64,000 nucleotides of DNA from Hemileia vastatrix (Eukaryota > Basidiomycota > Pucciniomycetes > Pucciniales > Zaghouaniaceae): assembly GCA_030280995.1 (NCBI GenBank), contig JASXTE010000001.1, positions 30,722,606 through 30,786,605 on the forward strand. The letters run 5' to 3'. Shown here piece by piece: positions 53,055-64,000 of the stretch (positions are counted from its first letter, which is position 1; the number at the start of each line of letters is the position of its first letter). The position numbers and the translations under genes were made by a program. The notes below the pieces were generated by a model. It did not search any database. It saw only the letters and a program-made list of their open reading frames with translations, and was not told where the DNA came from.

Positions 53055-54213
53055 TATGGTAAGGTAAACTCTTACAGTCGCCTTGCTGTAAGCAGAATCC
53101 GGAGGAGATATGTGGATTTAGCCGAAAACCCCGTCCTTCCAATAAAAATAACAAAATGGGAATTCTAAATCACTAAGCTAACCAATCTACTTGGATCTGA
53201 TTGATGAAAATAATGAAACTCTAAAATATTTAACGCTTATTGAGATTAAAAGAAAGTGGCTGTTGAGAAAGAAATACTGATAACAACAATTAAGGTGTAC
53301 CAGTGAAAGATCTGTAAAGATTGACTTTTATGTTTTTATAATAATTTAAGTTTTTATGAGACAGCAATAATCAAGTCCCAGAGATGAAGACCTTTCTAAA
53401 GATACCCTGTATGAAGTGTGATTTAAATTGTTGAGTAGTATTTCTAAAATGTTATATATAAAATATAAAGTTATAAGGGTATTACAAATTTATTTAATTT
53501 GTTGAGTAATAAAAAATAAGACTGTGGTGGTTAAAGATTAAGCTGTATGATGTGTCCCCCCCTCTCAATTTCGAATTTGAGAAGCGCTTAAGTATTCCTA
53601 GTCACGTGCCTAAGTTTTCCCCTCCAGAGCTTTTCCAGAGTCAATCCGGAGCCCGTACGGAGCCGGAACGGAGTCCGTACGGAGTCGAAGCGGAGTCCGT
53701 ATGGAGTCCGTACGGAGTCAAAACGGAGTCTGTCCGGACTTCCGGACTCAATTAGAACCTTAAAACTATAAGAAAAAATCTAGAAAAATTACACATAATA
53801 GAGCTATTTCCCTTTTACATACCAAACTAATTTTCGTAGTCTGCGCAGCACTAATTACCCCATGAAAATTCATCAAAGTTAAGTAATTTTTGAAATCGTA
53901 AATATTTCTATAAAACTTTAAAATTCATTTAAAAATATAAGAAAAATAGTAAAAATTCTGGGAAAATTTCCTAAGGTTCTTGATAGACTTGACTTGATAC
54001 TTATAAATTTTTCAGACCCTAAAAATAAGTTTTCTCCGTAAAATAAATTGTATTTGTGTAGGCATTTGCTCGTGACCAATTTCTTCATATTTAAAACTCA
54101 AATAAATTAAATAAAACCCTTTTATATATAAAAAAAATAATAACGCCAATCTTGCACGCCGTAATAACTCCATTTACGTACTTAGGTGCCGTTCTAAACT
54201 TTAGGCTACCACA
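53055..54213 (-). repeat. 5' LTR of gypsy-A
   Basis: 1159 bp. Differs from the 3' LTR by 45 bp in the GGAGTCCGTACGGAGTC-type minisatellite (53640-53750) and by scattered substitutions, so the insertion is recent but not brand new. Confidence 0.95.
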
Positions 54214-57200
54214 ACGTCTTTGGAGAACTGGTTGTCTTCTCATCCCTGCACCAGTTAATCCTACATCAAACTTCATTATTTCACGTAATGGAAAGAATTA
54301 TATGGGAGGAGTCATCTCCAATTCATTATTTGAAGTTTCTGTGGTTCCACAAGGCATGTCTCCCCCTAATTCCTCAGCTCTCCATGCAAAAGCTTCAAGT
54401 CAGTCTCTAACTCTCTGGCACAACAGATTAGGACATCCCTACGCCCCATATATTCAAAAACTTTTTAATGGAATGGCATCTGATGTATCTAGTTCTAGTT
54501 TGTCTGATTCTGAAATGCATTTTTGTGAACCGTGTGTGTTGGGTAAACAAACCCATGCTTCCTTTCCTGGCCAGTTGCCTGTTGCCAAAAATCCTCTTGA
54601 AGTTGTACACACAGATTTATCTGGGAAAATTCAGCCTCCTTCTTTTGATGGTTCTCAGTATTACCTTAAGTTCACTGATCAGGCCACTTCATACCGTCAT
54701 GTTTACCTTCTTTCCTCAAAAGCCCAAGTATTCAAATATTTCTTGGAATATAAGGCATCTGTAGAGCTGCAATCTGGCTTCAAAATCAAAAAGCTTGTTT
54801 GTGACGGTGGTGGTGAGTATATCAACTCTAGTCTGGTCAACTTTCTTAAACAACATGGCATTTCTCTTCAAGTTACAGCTCCTTACACTCCCCAACAAAA
54901 TCCAATTTCTGAGAGAGGAAACCGTATTACCACTGAAAAATCCAAAACCATGATGTTTCATTCTAATGCACCAATTCACCTATGGTCTGAAGCAGTTAAA
55001 ACAGCAGTATATCTTGAAAACAGATTACCAACCAAAGCTCTTCAAAACAAATCAACTCCTTTTGAAGCCTGGAATAAATCCAAACCCAGAGTTTCACACC
55101 TCAGAGTTTTTGGTTGTGCTTGCTATGCTTTCCTTGATAAACATCAACGTCCTGGAAAGTTTTCAGCTAATGCCAGAAAGTGTGTCATGCTTGGATATGA
55201 AGTTGGAACAACAAATTATCATGTTTGGGACCTTGAGCTTAAAAAGATTGTTATTGCCAAATCTGCGGCCTTCAATGAAAATTTCTTCCCCTTTCTTGAC
55301 TCCAGAGTTAAGCGCCCTCAATGGTCACAACTGATGAAGCAAATTCCAGATCAAATTCATGACAGTCAACCACTTCCAACACCTGGCCTTTCCTTTTCTC
55401 CAGCTCAATCTCCTTCTGAGTCTCCAACTCCTGATCCATCCTCAGGAAACATTTCTGATTCACATTCTGAAGATAATACTCCTTCTTCTTCTTCTTCCTC
55501 TGATTTTCACATGTCAGGCACACCTTCCAATTCAACTCCTTGTCCTTCACCTGGCCACTTAACAAGATTACCTCATTCCAATGTCCCAGATGAAGAAGGT
55601 TCCAGTCAATCTGATCCATCATATTCATCAATTGAGCCAGACAATCCAGCAGATCCTGATTATGTTCCCTCATCACAATCCCCCAGTTATTCTGACATCT
55701 CTTCAGCTGAAACATCAACTCCTGAACATTTACGTCAGATTTATTATGATCATTATCAACATGATTCCTACTCTGATTCTCCTGATCCTCTTGGGTTATA
55801 TGCAGCATATGCCTTTGCTTTCTCTCTAGAAGCTCCCTTGCTAGCTCATGAAATTCCTGAACCCCAGTGTTATAAGCAAGCAATCTATTCCAAATATTCA
55901 GCAGAATGGGCAGAGGCTGTGAAACATGAACATCAAGCACTTCAGCGTTGTAACACTTGGAAAATTGTCCCCAGGCCTGAAAAAGCTAATTTAATTGGCT
56001 GCAGGTGGGTTTTCAGGGTTAAACCTAATGCTGATAGTGGTGTTTCAAAGTTCAAAGCCCATTGTGTAGCAAAAGGATATTCTCAAATCCTAGGAATAGA
56101 TTTTCATGAAACTTTTGCACCCACTGGACGGATCACCTCTCTCAGGACCATTCTTTCTTTAGCAGCTTATTTTGACTGGGATGTTCATCAAATGGATGTA
56201 GTGGCAGCTTTTCTCCAGGGAAACTTAAATGAAACTGTTTATATGGAACAGCCTGAAGGAACACTAACTGCTGGAAATGAAGGTAAAGTTTGCCAATTGT
56301 TGCGTCCTCTTTATGGCATCAAACAAGCTCCCTTTTGCTGGAATTCACATATAAATGACTACTTGTGCAAGCTCAACTTCTCACCCCTTAAGTGTGATCA
56401 GCGTGTGTATGTTTGGAGAAACAAATCACAAATCTGTATCATTTATCTTCATGTTGATGATATGGTCATTACTGGTAATCATTTTCTTTGGTTCAAAGAC
56501 AAAATCAAAACTGAATTTGAGATGGATGATCTTGGTCCTGCCACTTGGATTTTGGGAATGCGTCTCACCAGGAACAGAACAGCACGTACTCTTTCTTTAT
56601 CACAAGATTCTTATGCTGAAAAAGTTTTGTCCAACTGGAATATGACCAACTGCAATCCCTGTCTTACTCCCTTATCTCCAAATGATTATCCTGTCAAAGC
56701 AACCAGTGAAGAAATTGCTGAATTCAATGCTCTGAAAATCAATTACCGCTCTGCTATTGGTGCACTCAACTATTTGTCTGTTGCAACAAGACCTGATCTC
56801 TCTTTTGCAGTTGGTGCATTATCTCAACATCTCATTGAACCAGGTATCAAGCACTGGCTTGCTGTCAAACACACTTTCAGATATCTGCGTGCCACTTCAT
56901 CATCATCTCTCACTTTTGGAGGAAAATGCCCAATTCCAAATCATCCATCACTCTGTCCTCTTATTTACTCTGACACTGATTATGCTGGGGATCCTGATAC
57001 CAGGCGCTCAACTGGAGGGTATGTTGCCATACTCAATGGAGGAGCTATTTCCTGGAGTTCTAAAAAGCAGCAAGTTGTCACTATCTCTAGTACTGAAGCT
57101 GAGTTCAGAGGCATTGTGGATGCTGGATGTGAAGCAATCTGGCTGACTAAATTACTTACTTCCTTCAATATTCCTAAGTCACCTTCACCTTTAATCCTTG

Positions 57201-57436
57201 CTGACAATGCCAGTTCCATTTCACAATGCAAGGATTCACTCAGATACCGTCAAAGATCAAAACATGTGGACACTCAACTTTGTTGGATTACTGAAAGCAT
57301 CAACAAAAATAATTTTCAGCTTCAACACATTTCAACTGAACACATGGTGGCTGATCTTCTTACAAAATCTTTAGGAAAAGTCCAGCTGTCTTATCTCCTC
57401 AAACTCATGGGTCTGATATTAAGGGGGGGTGTTTAA
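54214..57436 (+). pseudogene. Copia element 4 pol (integrase, RT, RNase H), open 3' part
   Basis: Resumes with TSD ACGT and LWRTGCLLIPAPVN. It contains zinc module LWHNRLGHP/CEPCVLGK, integrase VVHTDLSG, VCDGGGEY, PISERGNR, the serine/proline linker, RT (CRWVFRVKPN, MDVVAAFLQG, YLHVDDM) and RNase H (SDTDYAGD, STEAEFRG, LADNASS, HMVADLLTK) with no stop. The terminal stop TAA lies 4-7 bases inside the 3' LTR. It is intact as sequence but separated from its start by gypsy-A. The best copia pol in the window. Confidence 0.94.
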
Positions 57437-59145: not shown

Positions 59146-60261
59146 TGTCGGTCAGTTGTCTAGAAGTAGGTAAGAAAAGGTGGAGAAAAGGAGGAGGACA
59201 AGAAGGAAAATAAAAGAAATAAAATATAAAAAGATTATTTAATTTATTGAGAGGAATCAAAGATGGTTTTCTTGAGAGGTGACAAAAGTGAGGTTATTAT
59301 TAATTAATAATATTATTATGATGTAAGGACTATGCGCAGCAGACACTATGATCACTATCAGACTTAAAGCAACCTTTAAATTGTTATATAGAATTTTAAT
59401 TAGAATTTTATTACTAATAAAAAGAATATAAACGTAATATAAAAAGTGTATTTAATTTGTTGAGTGTATAACAAGTGATGGGGCTACAGGGGATTAACCA
59501 AGGCCTTTTTATAGGCAATGGGCCCTCTGAAGCGCTACTATATTTGTAAATACAAGAAACATAATAGAATAAAACAAGAATTTAAAAGAATAAGTGAAAC
59601 ATAACAATGTAGAGAAAAATATGAAACAAATAATTAAAAACCCCAATTAAGAATCTAATTTTCCCGCCATTAATTCCCAAATCAGTAAGTAAAAATAGTG
59701 AATTACTAAACAAGCCTGGAACATAGGAACTATGAGAAAAATCATTCAAAACAGATGGTACAGTCTGATTTAAGGATTTTTAAGTGAAACAAAAAAATAC
59801 TCTGACGCAACAAATATGTAATTTATTTCAATTCAGTATTAATTAGTTTTTCCTGACACAATTATAGGTCAAAAGAAGCGTCATTATTTATTGTTTAATA
59901 TTATAAGAAATGATATTTAATATATAAATATAATTAATTAATTTAATTATATTATAAGTAAATTTTACATTTATAATTATAATATATGTTTTTAATTAAT
60001 TAAATATAAATTTATAATTATTAAATACATAAAAAATGCGCCATTATTTGTAGAATATATTATATTATGTTAAGTTTAAATGTATAAAAATTTATATAAC
60101 CAATAAAATTAATATAACACTTGTATGTAATAAAATACTTATATAATTTTATTATGCAATAAAATATTAATTTATATACATTAAATACAATTCTTACCCC
60201 CTATTTCAGGTCTTATAAGTTACATATCATTTACTGGACTCCTGGAATAGCCTGGCTGACA
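59146..60261 (-). repeat. LTR-B, probable 5' LTR of gypsy-B
   Basis: 1116 bp, minus strand TGTCAGCCAGGCTATTCC to CTAGACAACTGACCGACA. TATA box TATAAAAA at 59506-59513 (minus strand). No matching duplication flanks it, as expected if it is one end of an element. Confidence 0.85.
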
Positions 60262-61630
60262 TAAAGAGTATAGCTTTATCCTGTATGAATTCAGCAAGTA
60301 CGAGATTTTGCTCTACACTTAATATTAATAATATAATGAAAGTATAACTCCAATACACTAGTAATATTAAAAAATTTACAGAATTATCATATCCACACAT
60401 ATAAAATGAAAAATCTTGCTCTGACCAATATATTGACTTAGAAAGTTATACTTCAATAAATTATTAATTTTTAAATTGTAGCATTGTCCTGTATGCTTTC
60501 AGCAAGTACGAGACTTTGAAACAACTTAAAAATCAATAAATTAAAGTTAAAGTACAAACAATCTAATTATTATTATGAAAAGCAAAACATTATCCTGTAA
60601 GCTTTCAGCAAGTACGAGATGATGTTTTACTTTTCATATTAATAATATAATGGTTGAGAAAGTATTAAAGAAATATAGAAAAATGATAAGCAAAACATGA
60701 ACTTACGTGTCTATAAAATCTTCTTCCATTTGTAGCTGATTGATCAAAATTAATTATAAAGTTTATTTTATAATTACTGTTTTAAAAAATAAATGGTTAG
60801 ATAAATAAATTGAACATTTTTGATAAGGAATAAAGAAAAGTAAATTGACAAACAAATAAAAAAACTTTAAGTTAACTGAAAAAGAATTTTTCTATAATGA
60901 ATCGAAAGGGTACAGTAAAAGATACCATAAAAATAAATTCAGAATTAGAATCATTAGATTAACTTGTCAAAAGTGTAAAAAAGAGTAACAAACCAAAATG
61001 ATATGAAATGCAATAGAAAGAAAAATTTGCTTACCAGTAATCAGATAAGGTCAAGAAAATAGTACCAATAATTCAAATTGATAAAGCAAAAATATGATTG
61101 ATAATTTTTGAAAAAGGAAAGTGAGAAAGAGAAAGGAAAAATAAATTGGGTGGCAAACAGATGTAGATATCATGAATTTTCACTGATCTCATTTTCAAAA
61201 AAATTCAGCTCTCCAAGTCATATGATAAACTTCATCTAAATTCCAAGAATAATGTTGCCAAGGCACTGTACACAGCCTGATCATTTTTTCCTATGCATAT
61301 ACTAATTCCAGCTAGAATTTACTTGGCTGCATGTTTTACAGATGAACGTTTGTGGAACGCTGAATTTCACATCTAAAAAAAATTGACGCCACGTAATTCT
61401 AGCTACCATGTTTCACGTAGCTAAAAAACATACACTCATCACATTTAAATTTACATTGTGTCAAAATTAATTCATTTTGGAATTTTTTTAAAGGGAACTA
61501 TAATGTGCACCTCCTATTTCTAAAATATGAAGCTCCCCACCATATTAAATTGATAGATTTTTAATTGTGCAATTTTTATGCCTTGGCCTTTTTCCTGATC
61601 TTACTTGGCTCAAAATATCAAAACATGGCG
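60262..61630. other. AT-rich flank with a thrice-repeated hairpin box
   Basis: No coding frame. Three copies of a ~35-bp box lie at 60276-60310, 60483-60518 and 60589-60624. The rest shows nothing recognisable. Confidence 0.6.
60276..60624 (+). repeat. Three dispersed copies of a 35-bp box
   Basis: Shared core TATCCTGTAT-GCTTTC and AGCAAGTACGAGA. Flanks around each core tend to pair with each other: AAAAGCAAAACAT with ATGTTTTACTTTT around the third, TTAAATTGT with ACAACTTAA-like sequence around the second. So a constant loop sits on arms that differ between copies. Confidence 0.7.
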
Positions 61631-62462
61631 AATGTTGCTGAAAGCAACATTTGATTCTGTTTCTATGTGTATCAATGGAAGGCCGTTTATAACCGGCTGC
61701 AGAGCGTTGTATATCTTTTTGAACAAATTTTTATTTATTTATGTATTTTAATTAGATAATTTACTTTTTAATGCAGCCAGATTTATACTGGCTGCTTTTT
61801 GGAAAGCTTAATTTATGACCCAAGCCTTTGAAATTGGCTTGGGTCCCTTACATTGCAATTTAGTACTTCCAGCCAGGTTTCCCCTGGCTGGAAGTGTCTC
61901 TTTCAGGCAATCAAAGTCACTAAAAGCGACTTTGATTGCTTGCTGTAAAATTTGCCACCCTCCCAGCCAATTTACTAGGCTGGGAGGTGGCCAAAGCTGT
62001 GTGCAACGCGCGTTGCACAATCACTTCCATATCTCATGCAGCTGACTTGATATCAGCTGCATGAGATATGGGCAGCACATGCAATGCGCGCTGCATGCAG
62101 CAGCAATGCAGGCTTCATGTGCTGCATGCAACGCGCATTAATTGCAGCAGCGATGCATGTTGCATGTGCTGCATGCAGTGCATTGCACATCCAGTTTTTT
62201 TCTGGCTGTGCAATGCACACAGAGAAACCAAAGTCCCTGCAAGGGACTTTGGTCTCTAAAATGGAAGCAACTTTCCCTACCAGGTGCAAACTGGTGGGAA
62301 AGTGAGAGACAAGTTAGACTGAAGTTGTTTGAAAGCAACTTCAGTCTTAAAAAAATTAAAAATCATAAATAAAAATTTAAAAAAAAATTAAAATGTGAGT
62401 TAGTATAAGAAAAAAAAAGTGCTAGTGATACCAAAAACCCAAGCCGATTTCATTTGGCTTGG
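61631..62462. repeat. Hairpin island: about 15 successive inverted repeats
   Basis: Back-to-back hairpins, spaced mostly 0-22 bp, each with a different sequence: 61631-61651, 61682-61697, 61773-61795, 61817-61845, 61865-61895, 61907-61939, 61954-61991, 62000-62019 (TGTGCAACGCGCGTTGCACA, perfect), 62027-62071 (19-bp arms), 62072-62172 (branched), 62178-62218, 62221-62257, 62270-62303, 62316-62347, 62439-62462. Arms are 7-19 bp and almost free of mismatches; loops are 3-10 bases. The block is GC-richer than its surroundings. Open frames in it are by-products of the symmetry. Confidence 0.92.
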
Positions 62463-62884
62463 TTATTTAATAATTATTTTTTAATACATTAAATTTAAAA
62501 TTCAAACACCATGAAATATATGAAATTTTTTTATATGAATATTATAAATTTAATTTACCTCTTTCTCATAATTATATTTATAATTTTGTTTTTTTAATTT
62601 TTGACTTTTAAGTTGATTTTTTGGAAATACAAAATTAAATTTTCAACTAAATTTTTTAGTAAGGTAAAAATAATTATAAATTTGACATTTTGGAATTGAA
62701 TAATGAAAAAAATTTTAAATTTATTTAAAAAATATTTTTGTTAGAAGAATACCAATATTTTAAGGGTAGAAATATGGTGCAAATTGTAAGTAAAAAAATT
62801 ATATTTTTTTTGTGAGGGGTTATTTCTATTTTTGTAAATATTTTTCAAAAACATTCATTAAATACTGAATTTAATTACTTTGTA
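62463..62884. other. AT-rich, nothing recognised
   Basis: Runs of A and T with no frame or repeat beyond simple sequence. Confidence 0.5.
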
Positions 62885-64000
62885 TGTCGGTCAGTTGTCT
62901 AGAAGAGGGAAGAAAAGGGGGCAGAAAAGAAGAGAAAGAAAAAAGGAATAGACACTAAAGGTAAAAAGAAAGATAAAAATAATAAAAGAAATAATTTATT
63001 TAAAATGAAGCAAAGACGATTGAGTTGAGAGATGAACAAATTGAGGTTTTTATTTAATGATATATTAATTCAAGTAAGGGTTCTGCGCGGCAAACACTTT
63101 AATTACTATCAGACTTAAGGCTACCTTTTAATTGTTATATAGAATTTTTAATTAGATTGTAATACTAATAAAAAATAATAATAAATGTAATAAAATTTAA
63201 TTTAAATTGTTGAGTATATAGTAAGTGATGGGGCTACAGGGGATTAACCAAGGCCTTTTTATAGGAAATGGGCCCTCTGAAGTGCTACTATATTTGTAAA
63301 TACAAGAAACATAATAGAATAAAACAAGAATTTAAAAGAATAAGTGAAACATAACAATGTAGAGAAAAATATGAAACAAATAATCAAAAACCCCAATTAA
63401 GAATCCAATTTTCCCACAATTAATTCCCAAATCAGTAAGTAAAAATAGTAAATAACTAAACAAGCCTGGGACATATGGACTATGAGAAAAATAAATCAAA
63501 ACAGATTGTACAGTCTGATTTAAGGATTTTTAAGTGAAACAAAGAATATTGTTACGCAACAAAATATGTAATTAATCTCAATTTAGTATAAATTAATTAC
63601 TTGTTTTTTCCTGACACACTTATGGGTCAAAAGAAGCGTCATTATTTATTGTTTAATACTATAAAAAATGATATTTAATATATAAATATAAATAAATAAT
63701 TTAATTATATTATAAGTAAATTTTACACTTATAATTATAATATATGTTTTTAATTAATTAAATATAAATTAATAATTATTAAATACATTAAAAATGCGCC
63801 ATTATTTGTAGAATATAATATATTATGTTTAATTTAAATGTATAAAAAATTTATATAACCAATAAAATTAATATAACACTTATATGTAATAAGATACTTA
63901 TATAATTTTATTATGCAATAAAATATTAATTTATATACATTAAATACAATTCTTACACCCTCTTTCAGGTCCTATAAGTTAACATATAATTTACTGGGCA
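62885..64000 (-). repeat. LTR-B, cut by the window end
   Basis: Plus strand begins TGTCGGTCAGTTGTCTAG. Parallel to 59146-60261 throughout, with TATA box at 63256-63263 (minus strand) and the start region TTTACTGGGCA at the window end, about 30 bp short of the full LTR. The element it belongs to is unknown. Confidence 0.88.

Follow-up and report, generated by a model that had tools for sequence, protein, structure and literature searches.

A dense island of near-perfect hairpins inside a very large, high-copy transposon of Hemileia vastatrix

EnSpm DNA transposons carrying a TET gene (TET+ EnSpm) have been described in rust fungi, with CAC...GTG ends and a Tet-like dioxygenase gene aboard (Kojima 2025, PMC12730594); a word search of the main text of that article returns no hairpin, stem-loop or SNF2. 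Perfect stems have been studied in quite different sequences, and template switching is documented to create and repair the hairpins of RNA genes, and to invert their loops without leaving a footprint in the arms (Monttinen and Loytynoja 2022, PMC8794818). In chloroplast DNA, small inversions of hairpin loops via recombination are also known, and span 5–50 bp between inverted repeats of 11–24 bp (Kim and Lee 2005, cited in PMC12928735). At the level of titles and abstracts, we recognised in the literature no multi-hairpin transposon, and no EnSpm or rust transposon combining SNF2 and TET, as the same as the locus considered here.

This locus is an 832-bp island (61631–62462) in a window of 64,000 bp of the Hemileia vastatrix genome (contig JASXTE010000001.1), whose numbering is followed below. 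An earlier note on this DNA had described a dense run of near-perfect hairpins, which is real and far above chance: when arms must reach 10 bp with no more than one mismatch and a GC of 0.3 or higher, and loops may not exceed 15 nt, the island scores 12 hairpins, whereas 50 dinucleotide shuffles score 0.56 on average and never more than 2; none of the remaining 800-bp bins of the window holds three or more under the same scan. Folded against shuffled controls, a check that the note had proposed, the island performs far better than all of them, with z-scores of -23.0 (plus-strand RNA), -21.1 (minus-strand RNA) and -19.9 (plus-strand DNA), and no shuffle is as good (20 shuffles per strand and molecule type). 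The two RNA strands fold equally well (-377.5 for plus and -376.5 for minus), hence without strand preference.

Between 61817 and 62347, 466 of 531 bases belong to hairpins if the outer stems and the branched region are counted in. The series, assigned to neither strand, comprises H1 (61631–61651, 9-bp arms), H2 (61681–61698, a weak 5-bp stem with one G-U), H3 (61773–61795, 8-bp arms), H4 (61817–61845, 10-bp arms), H5 (61865–61895), H6 (61907–61939, 15 pairs, one mismatch in the window copy), H7 (61959–61987, 10-bp arms, with an outward extension and a bulge to 61954–61991), H8 (62000–62019), H9 (62027–62071), a branched region (62072–62177), H11 (62178–62218, 17 pairs, one mismatch in the window copy), H12 (62221–62257, 16 pairs in total, 12 of them counted as core at 62227–62253), H13 (62270–62303, 13 pairs, one bulge), H14 (62316–62347, 14 pairs including one G-U) and H15 (62440–62461, 7 pairs, CAAGCC/GGCTTG as in H4, the innermost being G-U). 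The examples singled out earlier read as described, namely the 13-bp arms of H5, the perfect 20-bp palindrome of H8, the 19-bp arms and 7-nt loop of H9, and the pairing of GCAGCACATGCAA (62072–62084) with TTGCATGTGCTGC (62160–62172) in the branched region. The claim that most hairpins have no sequence in common needs some correction: they are not wholly unrelated, as AGCC...GGCT, judged by eye, is present in 6 of the 14 stems (H3, H4, H5, H7, H11 and H15).

A search of the genome for further islands, also suggested in the note, indicates that the island recurs at many places. In its own genome (747.6 Mb, 791 contigs) it is found full-length at 40 places, the window included, these being the 40 scored out of 1,610 first-look candidates, with an identity of 100% at its own place and of 89–93% at the others. 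The core of H9, searched as a pattern in either orientation, matches 1,113 places genome-wide, to be taken as candidate island copies whose island context is assumed rather than checked singly. Loci of 10 kb were taken around the 20 best-scoring other places, which are not a random sample of copies; set against one of them (L010), 16 of the 19 other loci have some 5 kb or more in common with it, undivided or in several pieces, and the remaining three (L018, L019 and L025) have 1.7–3.7 kb. The island is a non-coding, internal part of a very large, high-copy transposon.

Judged from its ends and its open reading frames (ORFs), this transposon belongs to the EnSpm/CACTA DNA transposons of the TET-bearing sort. 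Its ends, CACCACAG...CTGTGGTG, form CAC...GTG terminal inverted repeats. The L010 copy measures 27,155 bp (C26:53353994-53381148, nested short element included), and reads CACCACAGAAAATTTGGGGGGTATTGCTAGCAATACCCC on the left and GGGGTATTGCTAGCAATACCCCCCCATTTTTTCTGTGGTG on the right, while the L020 copy measures 26,897 bp and is 96–97% identical to L010 over the ORF-bearing span. Both ends were read in these two copies and the right end alone in L021 and L024, whose left ends were not found in the 1.4 kb fetched per copy. Domain searches run on L010 identified a tnp2 transposase ORF (PF02992, E 2.4e-16, L036:335-1768), a minus-strand ORF for a Tet-like 2OG-Fe(II) oxygenase (PF20515, E 2.1e-22, L010:1738-2478), with a predicted product resembling enzymes that erase DNA methylation, and two SNF2-like ORFs (E 3.8e-20 and 3.4e-21, L038:5223-7074). 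In the trypanosome protein JBP2, SNF2 and Tet-like activities are joined in one polypeptide. The island occupies about 20.15–21.02 kb of the 27.16 kb of L010, 6.1 kb from the right end; it is situated upstream of the PF20515 ORF (L010:1735-2478), about 2 kb from its 5' end, and 1.5 kb upstream of another ORF of the minus strand, possibly the first portion of the Tet-like gene. Set beside the TET+ EnSpm elements as presented by Kojima (PMC12730594), which are alike in their CAC...GTG ends and Tet-like gene, the Hemileia vastatrix element has a tnp2-like transposase and, in one of the two copies, an exact 3-bp flank duplication (AAT on both flanks of L010, against GAT/TAT in L020), and differs in its length of about 27 kb, its SNF2 ORFs and its hairpin island.

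Other repeats accompany this element. Inside the transposon and far from its ends, a stretch of about 2 kb (L031:561-2504) consists of repeats, mostly of 120–510 bp and 66–89% alike, that are inverted or direct with respect to one another. Two short elements, whose ends are CACTACG or CACCACA, contain a palindrome built around TTGCTAGCAA; one is nested in L010 (L010:8434-8694) and the other lies outside the large transposon (L038:2830-3075). They resemble the ends of the large transposon and are likely non-autonomous relatives. At the place expected for the left part of the L024 copy (L041:695-1349), the DNA reaches just 65% similarity to the L038 SNF2 region, and the right part of this copy is about 95% like L010; it is possibly a chimera or a member of a diverged subfamily.

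The window itself keeps only a 2.6-kb piece of the transposon (60261–62884, plus strand), 93–96% identical to the 20 loci compared. Both edges of this piece are plus-strand copies of one LTR (TGTCGG...GCTGACA, hence TG...CA), at 59146–60261 on the left and at 62885–64021 on the right, the latter running beyond the window, which ends at 64000; the two are direct copies 88% identical, and the junctions were read. The match to other loci starts at 60261 in 16 of 20 loci (L011 in two pieces), and further in for L014, L019, L018 and L025; it ends within 4 bp of 62884 in all 20, because the window copy stops there. The right LTR continues into sequence also found after the same LTR in locus L022, and the window therefore holds a fragment between copies of an LTR element, not a complete transposon. 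The whole window (1–64000) is dense in nested repeats, with about 67–99% mutual identity among the matches listed, and a Copia-like polyprotein ORF, identified by eye, lies at 54152–57436.

The 21 aligned copies provide a majority sequence, used here as a proxy for the active ancestor, in which 11 of 14 stems have no mismatch, a count inflated because the hairpins were chosen for their quality in the window copy; all 3 majority pairs that are imperfect are G-U on the plus strand. Individual copies present 146 one-sided stem changes (5 of them pair-restoring) versus 3 two-sided Watson-Crick changes, which appear as compensations in H6 of L027 and in H8 of L019 and L028, two of the three thus falling in the CpG-rich H8. 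Four two-sided mispairs are also found, 2 of them in H2, which was paired one base out of register in that count. Covariation as a proof of structure failed, being absent beyond shuffles in these copies (4 two-sided pairs versus 4.0 +/- 1.3), in a test of low power because the copies are young and form a nearly star-like set. Stem mispairs produced by decay are 39 G-T versus 33 C-A, without strand preference.

Outside CpG, 18 copies diverge from the majority by 0.0152 in stems, compared with 0.0182 upstream and 0.0209 downstream in the flanks; loops reach 0.028 and spacers 0.032. The stem value is close to those of the flanks, so that the stems of inserted copies drift nearly like their surroundings. 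The C>T rate at CpG is 0.21 and 0.17 versus 0.03 and 0.02 elsewhere (upstream flank and first part of the island, respectively, in a set that included three copies with a non-homologous upstream flank), and CpG decay accounts for part of the stem variation. A tree of the flanks is nearly star-like except for the clade L024/L027/L028 (support 1.000); the long branches of L018 and L025 reflect an upstream flank that is in large part non-homologous. The earlier argument that drift would destroy such pairing agrees with these data, as pairing is decaying in inserted copies; the recent copying of one arm from the other, proposed along with it, is rarely seen in these copies.

Changes of another kind affect the loops and the branched region. 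The H9 loop reads CTTGATA in the window and TATCAAG, its inverse, in 19 of the 20 other copies (TATTAAG in the remaining one), the H5 loop is exactly inverted in L022, and that of H6 is inverted in L025 with 2 further differences, which amounts to 3 inversions (two exact), with the arms kept, in 270 tested hairpin-copies of 13 hairpins. The flipped H9 loop with exact flanks is found at 8 places in the genome, the window's included, with a pattern stricter than the one behind the 1,113 core places, so that the ratio of both numbers is no flip frequency. In the branched region, blocks bounded by GCATGCA are rearranged among copies: 10 block arrangements were tallied by hand from markers in the 21 copies, and 5 of these (L018, L020, L024, L025 and L027) harbor inverted block markers. 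Loop flips and block shuffling probably stem from template switching or from cruciform inversion, either of which would leave the same mark. Template switching, as the note had supposed, is probably involved at the island through loop inversions and block rearrangements, but its arm copying is seldom seen in the copies. The island is like the template-switch hairpins (PMC8794818) in its perfect stems and in loop inversion without arm footprint, and differs in being a tiled part of a transposon, where those are stems of RNA genes; the multi-base compensations reported there were not found in island copies. It shares with the chloroplast cases (PMC12928735) small inversions between inverted repeats, but has them within a transposon, on large contigs of a genome of 748 Mb, and where many hairpins are gathered.

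Whether pairing was preserved in active elements can be approached through the one clade that departs from the star. Changes fixed on the L024/L027/L028 branch affect 3 of 323 stem sites versus 43 of 1,399 non-stem sites, and singletons in 15 main-family copies are 60 in stems versus 283 outside (fixed versus singletons, two-sided p 0.058, one-sided 0.038; fixed changes per site, p 0.033). Restricted to the island, the comparison is 3:19 fixed versus 60:70 singletons (p 0.0044), and was chosen after the counts were seen. The test is marginal, relies on a single branch, and assumes that the changes on this branch date from the active lineage. The 3 fixed stem changes comprise a C>A in H1 that breaks a pair, and C>T in H2 and H7 that turn C-G into U-G, none of them being compensated. 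Simulated with the correction rate seen in the copies, a 12-bp stem is free of mismatches in about 16% of cases, and at least 11 perfect stems out of 14 have a probability of 3e-7, which rises to 4e-4 if the rate is set just over its 95% upper limit; the estimate assumes an equal rate in active and inserted copies. Correction at this rate seems too slow to keep the stems perfect. Taken together, rarer fixed stem changes and slow correction suggest, without proving it, that pairing is maintained by selection in transposing elements. Selection on pairing, one of the options raised in the note, thus receives moderate support for the active lineage rather than for the window copy.

The reading we favor, tentatively, is that active elements were under selection for pairing, in the form of structured RNA or of extruded DNA, and that pairing erodes in copies once they are inserted. 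A purely mutational origin is a serious alternative, which we nevertheless consider unlikely: a hot spot of template switching would make and repair hairpins by arm-to-arm copying, without any function. The loop inversions, the genome places with a flipped H9 loop and the shuffled or inverted blocks all speak for it, as does the documented ability of template switching to produce such changes (PMC8794818). It is at odds with the few two-sided Watson-Crick changes, mostly in CpG-rich H8, facing so many one-sided ones, and the rate that these imply is too low for perfect stems, so that this reading would require correction to run faster in the active lineage, as it might while the element transposes. 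A cis element acting at the DNA level, by cruciform extrusion or by binding of the transposase, Tet-like or SNF2 protein, and serving recruitment or the regulation of the Tet-like gene to its left, is less likely still. The AGCC...GGCT motif common to several stems, the place of the island past the 5' end of the PF20515 ORF and the equal folding of both strands would fit such an element. Ordinary palindromic binding sites are shorter than these arms, which reach 13–19 bp and moreover differ in sequence, and the core of the terminal palindrome, TTGCTAGCAA, is absent from the island, being found in the L010 stretches searched at the right end, the nested short element and the left end only.

A precursor of small RNAs or microRNA-like RNAs is improbable. 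Most stems, at 8–17 bp, are short for Dicer. Weak microRNA-like scores were obtained in Rfam, but the 11 matches up to E 1 in window positions 60000–64000 are all far below the gathering score (best 28.8 versus 69), and a microRNA family was set aside on these grounds; a search of a phage collection gave nothing usable. Hairpins of miRNA-like type have been reported in a rust fungus (PMC8444563), which would lend this option some plausibility. An independent fold-back element or an assembly artefact is hardly credible at all: dense inverted repeats might evoke either, but the island is embedded in a much larger repeat with its own ends and recurs at 40 places on many contigs, which argues strongly against an artefact. 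Of the two outcomes that the note would have taken as a refutation, neither was met with, as folding beats the shuffles and the island is present at many loci. Its inverted repeats are not terminal, the island being about 20 kb inside a transposon that has its own terminal inverted repeats, so that of the fold-back mobile element envisaged in the note, the mobile element stands and the fold-back class does not.

Under selection on pairing in active elements, the multi-hairpin module, which lies about 20 kb inside an EnSpm/CACTA transposon of ~27 kb with tnp2, Tet-like and SNF2 ORFs, would have owed its pairing to selection in the lineage that transposes. A structured RNA made from the transposon would be its most likely form, with extruded DNA as a close alternative. 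Inserted copies would then drift and lose pairing, and loop flips and block shuffling would be by-products of template switching or cruciform processing at inverted repeats. RNA may be a little likelier than extruded DNA, with the G-U form of the 3 imperfect majority pairs on the plus strand as the sole, weak lean, as the strand symmetry of folding and of decay favors neither. A regulatory role is conceivable, given the place of the island about 2 kb upstream of the Tet-like ORF. It is also possible, though unlikely, that the selected tiled module serves the mobility of the transposon or its escape from silencing, as structured RNA or extruded DNA, with a branched core that shuffles and inverts blocks like a small shufflon, in an element equipped with methylation-eraser-like and chromatin-remodeller-like genes.

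The class of element is known; what appears to be new is the presence of a tiled hairpin island beside TET and SNF2 in a single EnSpm element, together with the record of flips. With about a thousand candidate copies, of which the 21 compared are nearly star-like, this family can serve as an experiment set up by nature for two questions: whether selection or template switching accounts for the origin and upkeep of perfect hairpins, and which non-coding modules large fungal DNA transposons contain in addition to enzymes. A functional module would be a novel structural component for transposons that bear TET; one without function would still document, in rich detail, how loops invert and blocks rearrange in DNA other than that of organelles.
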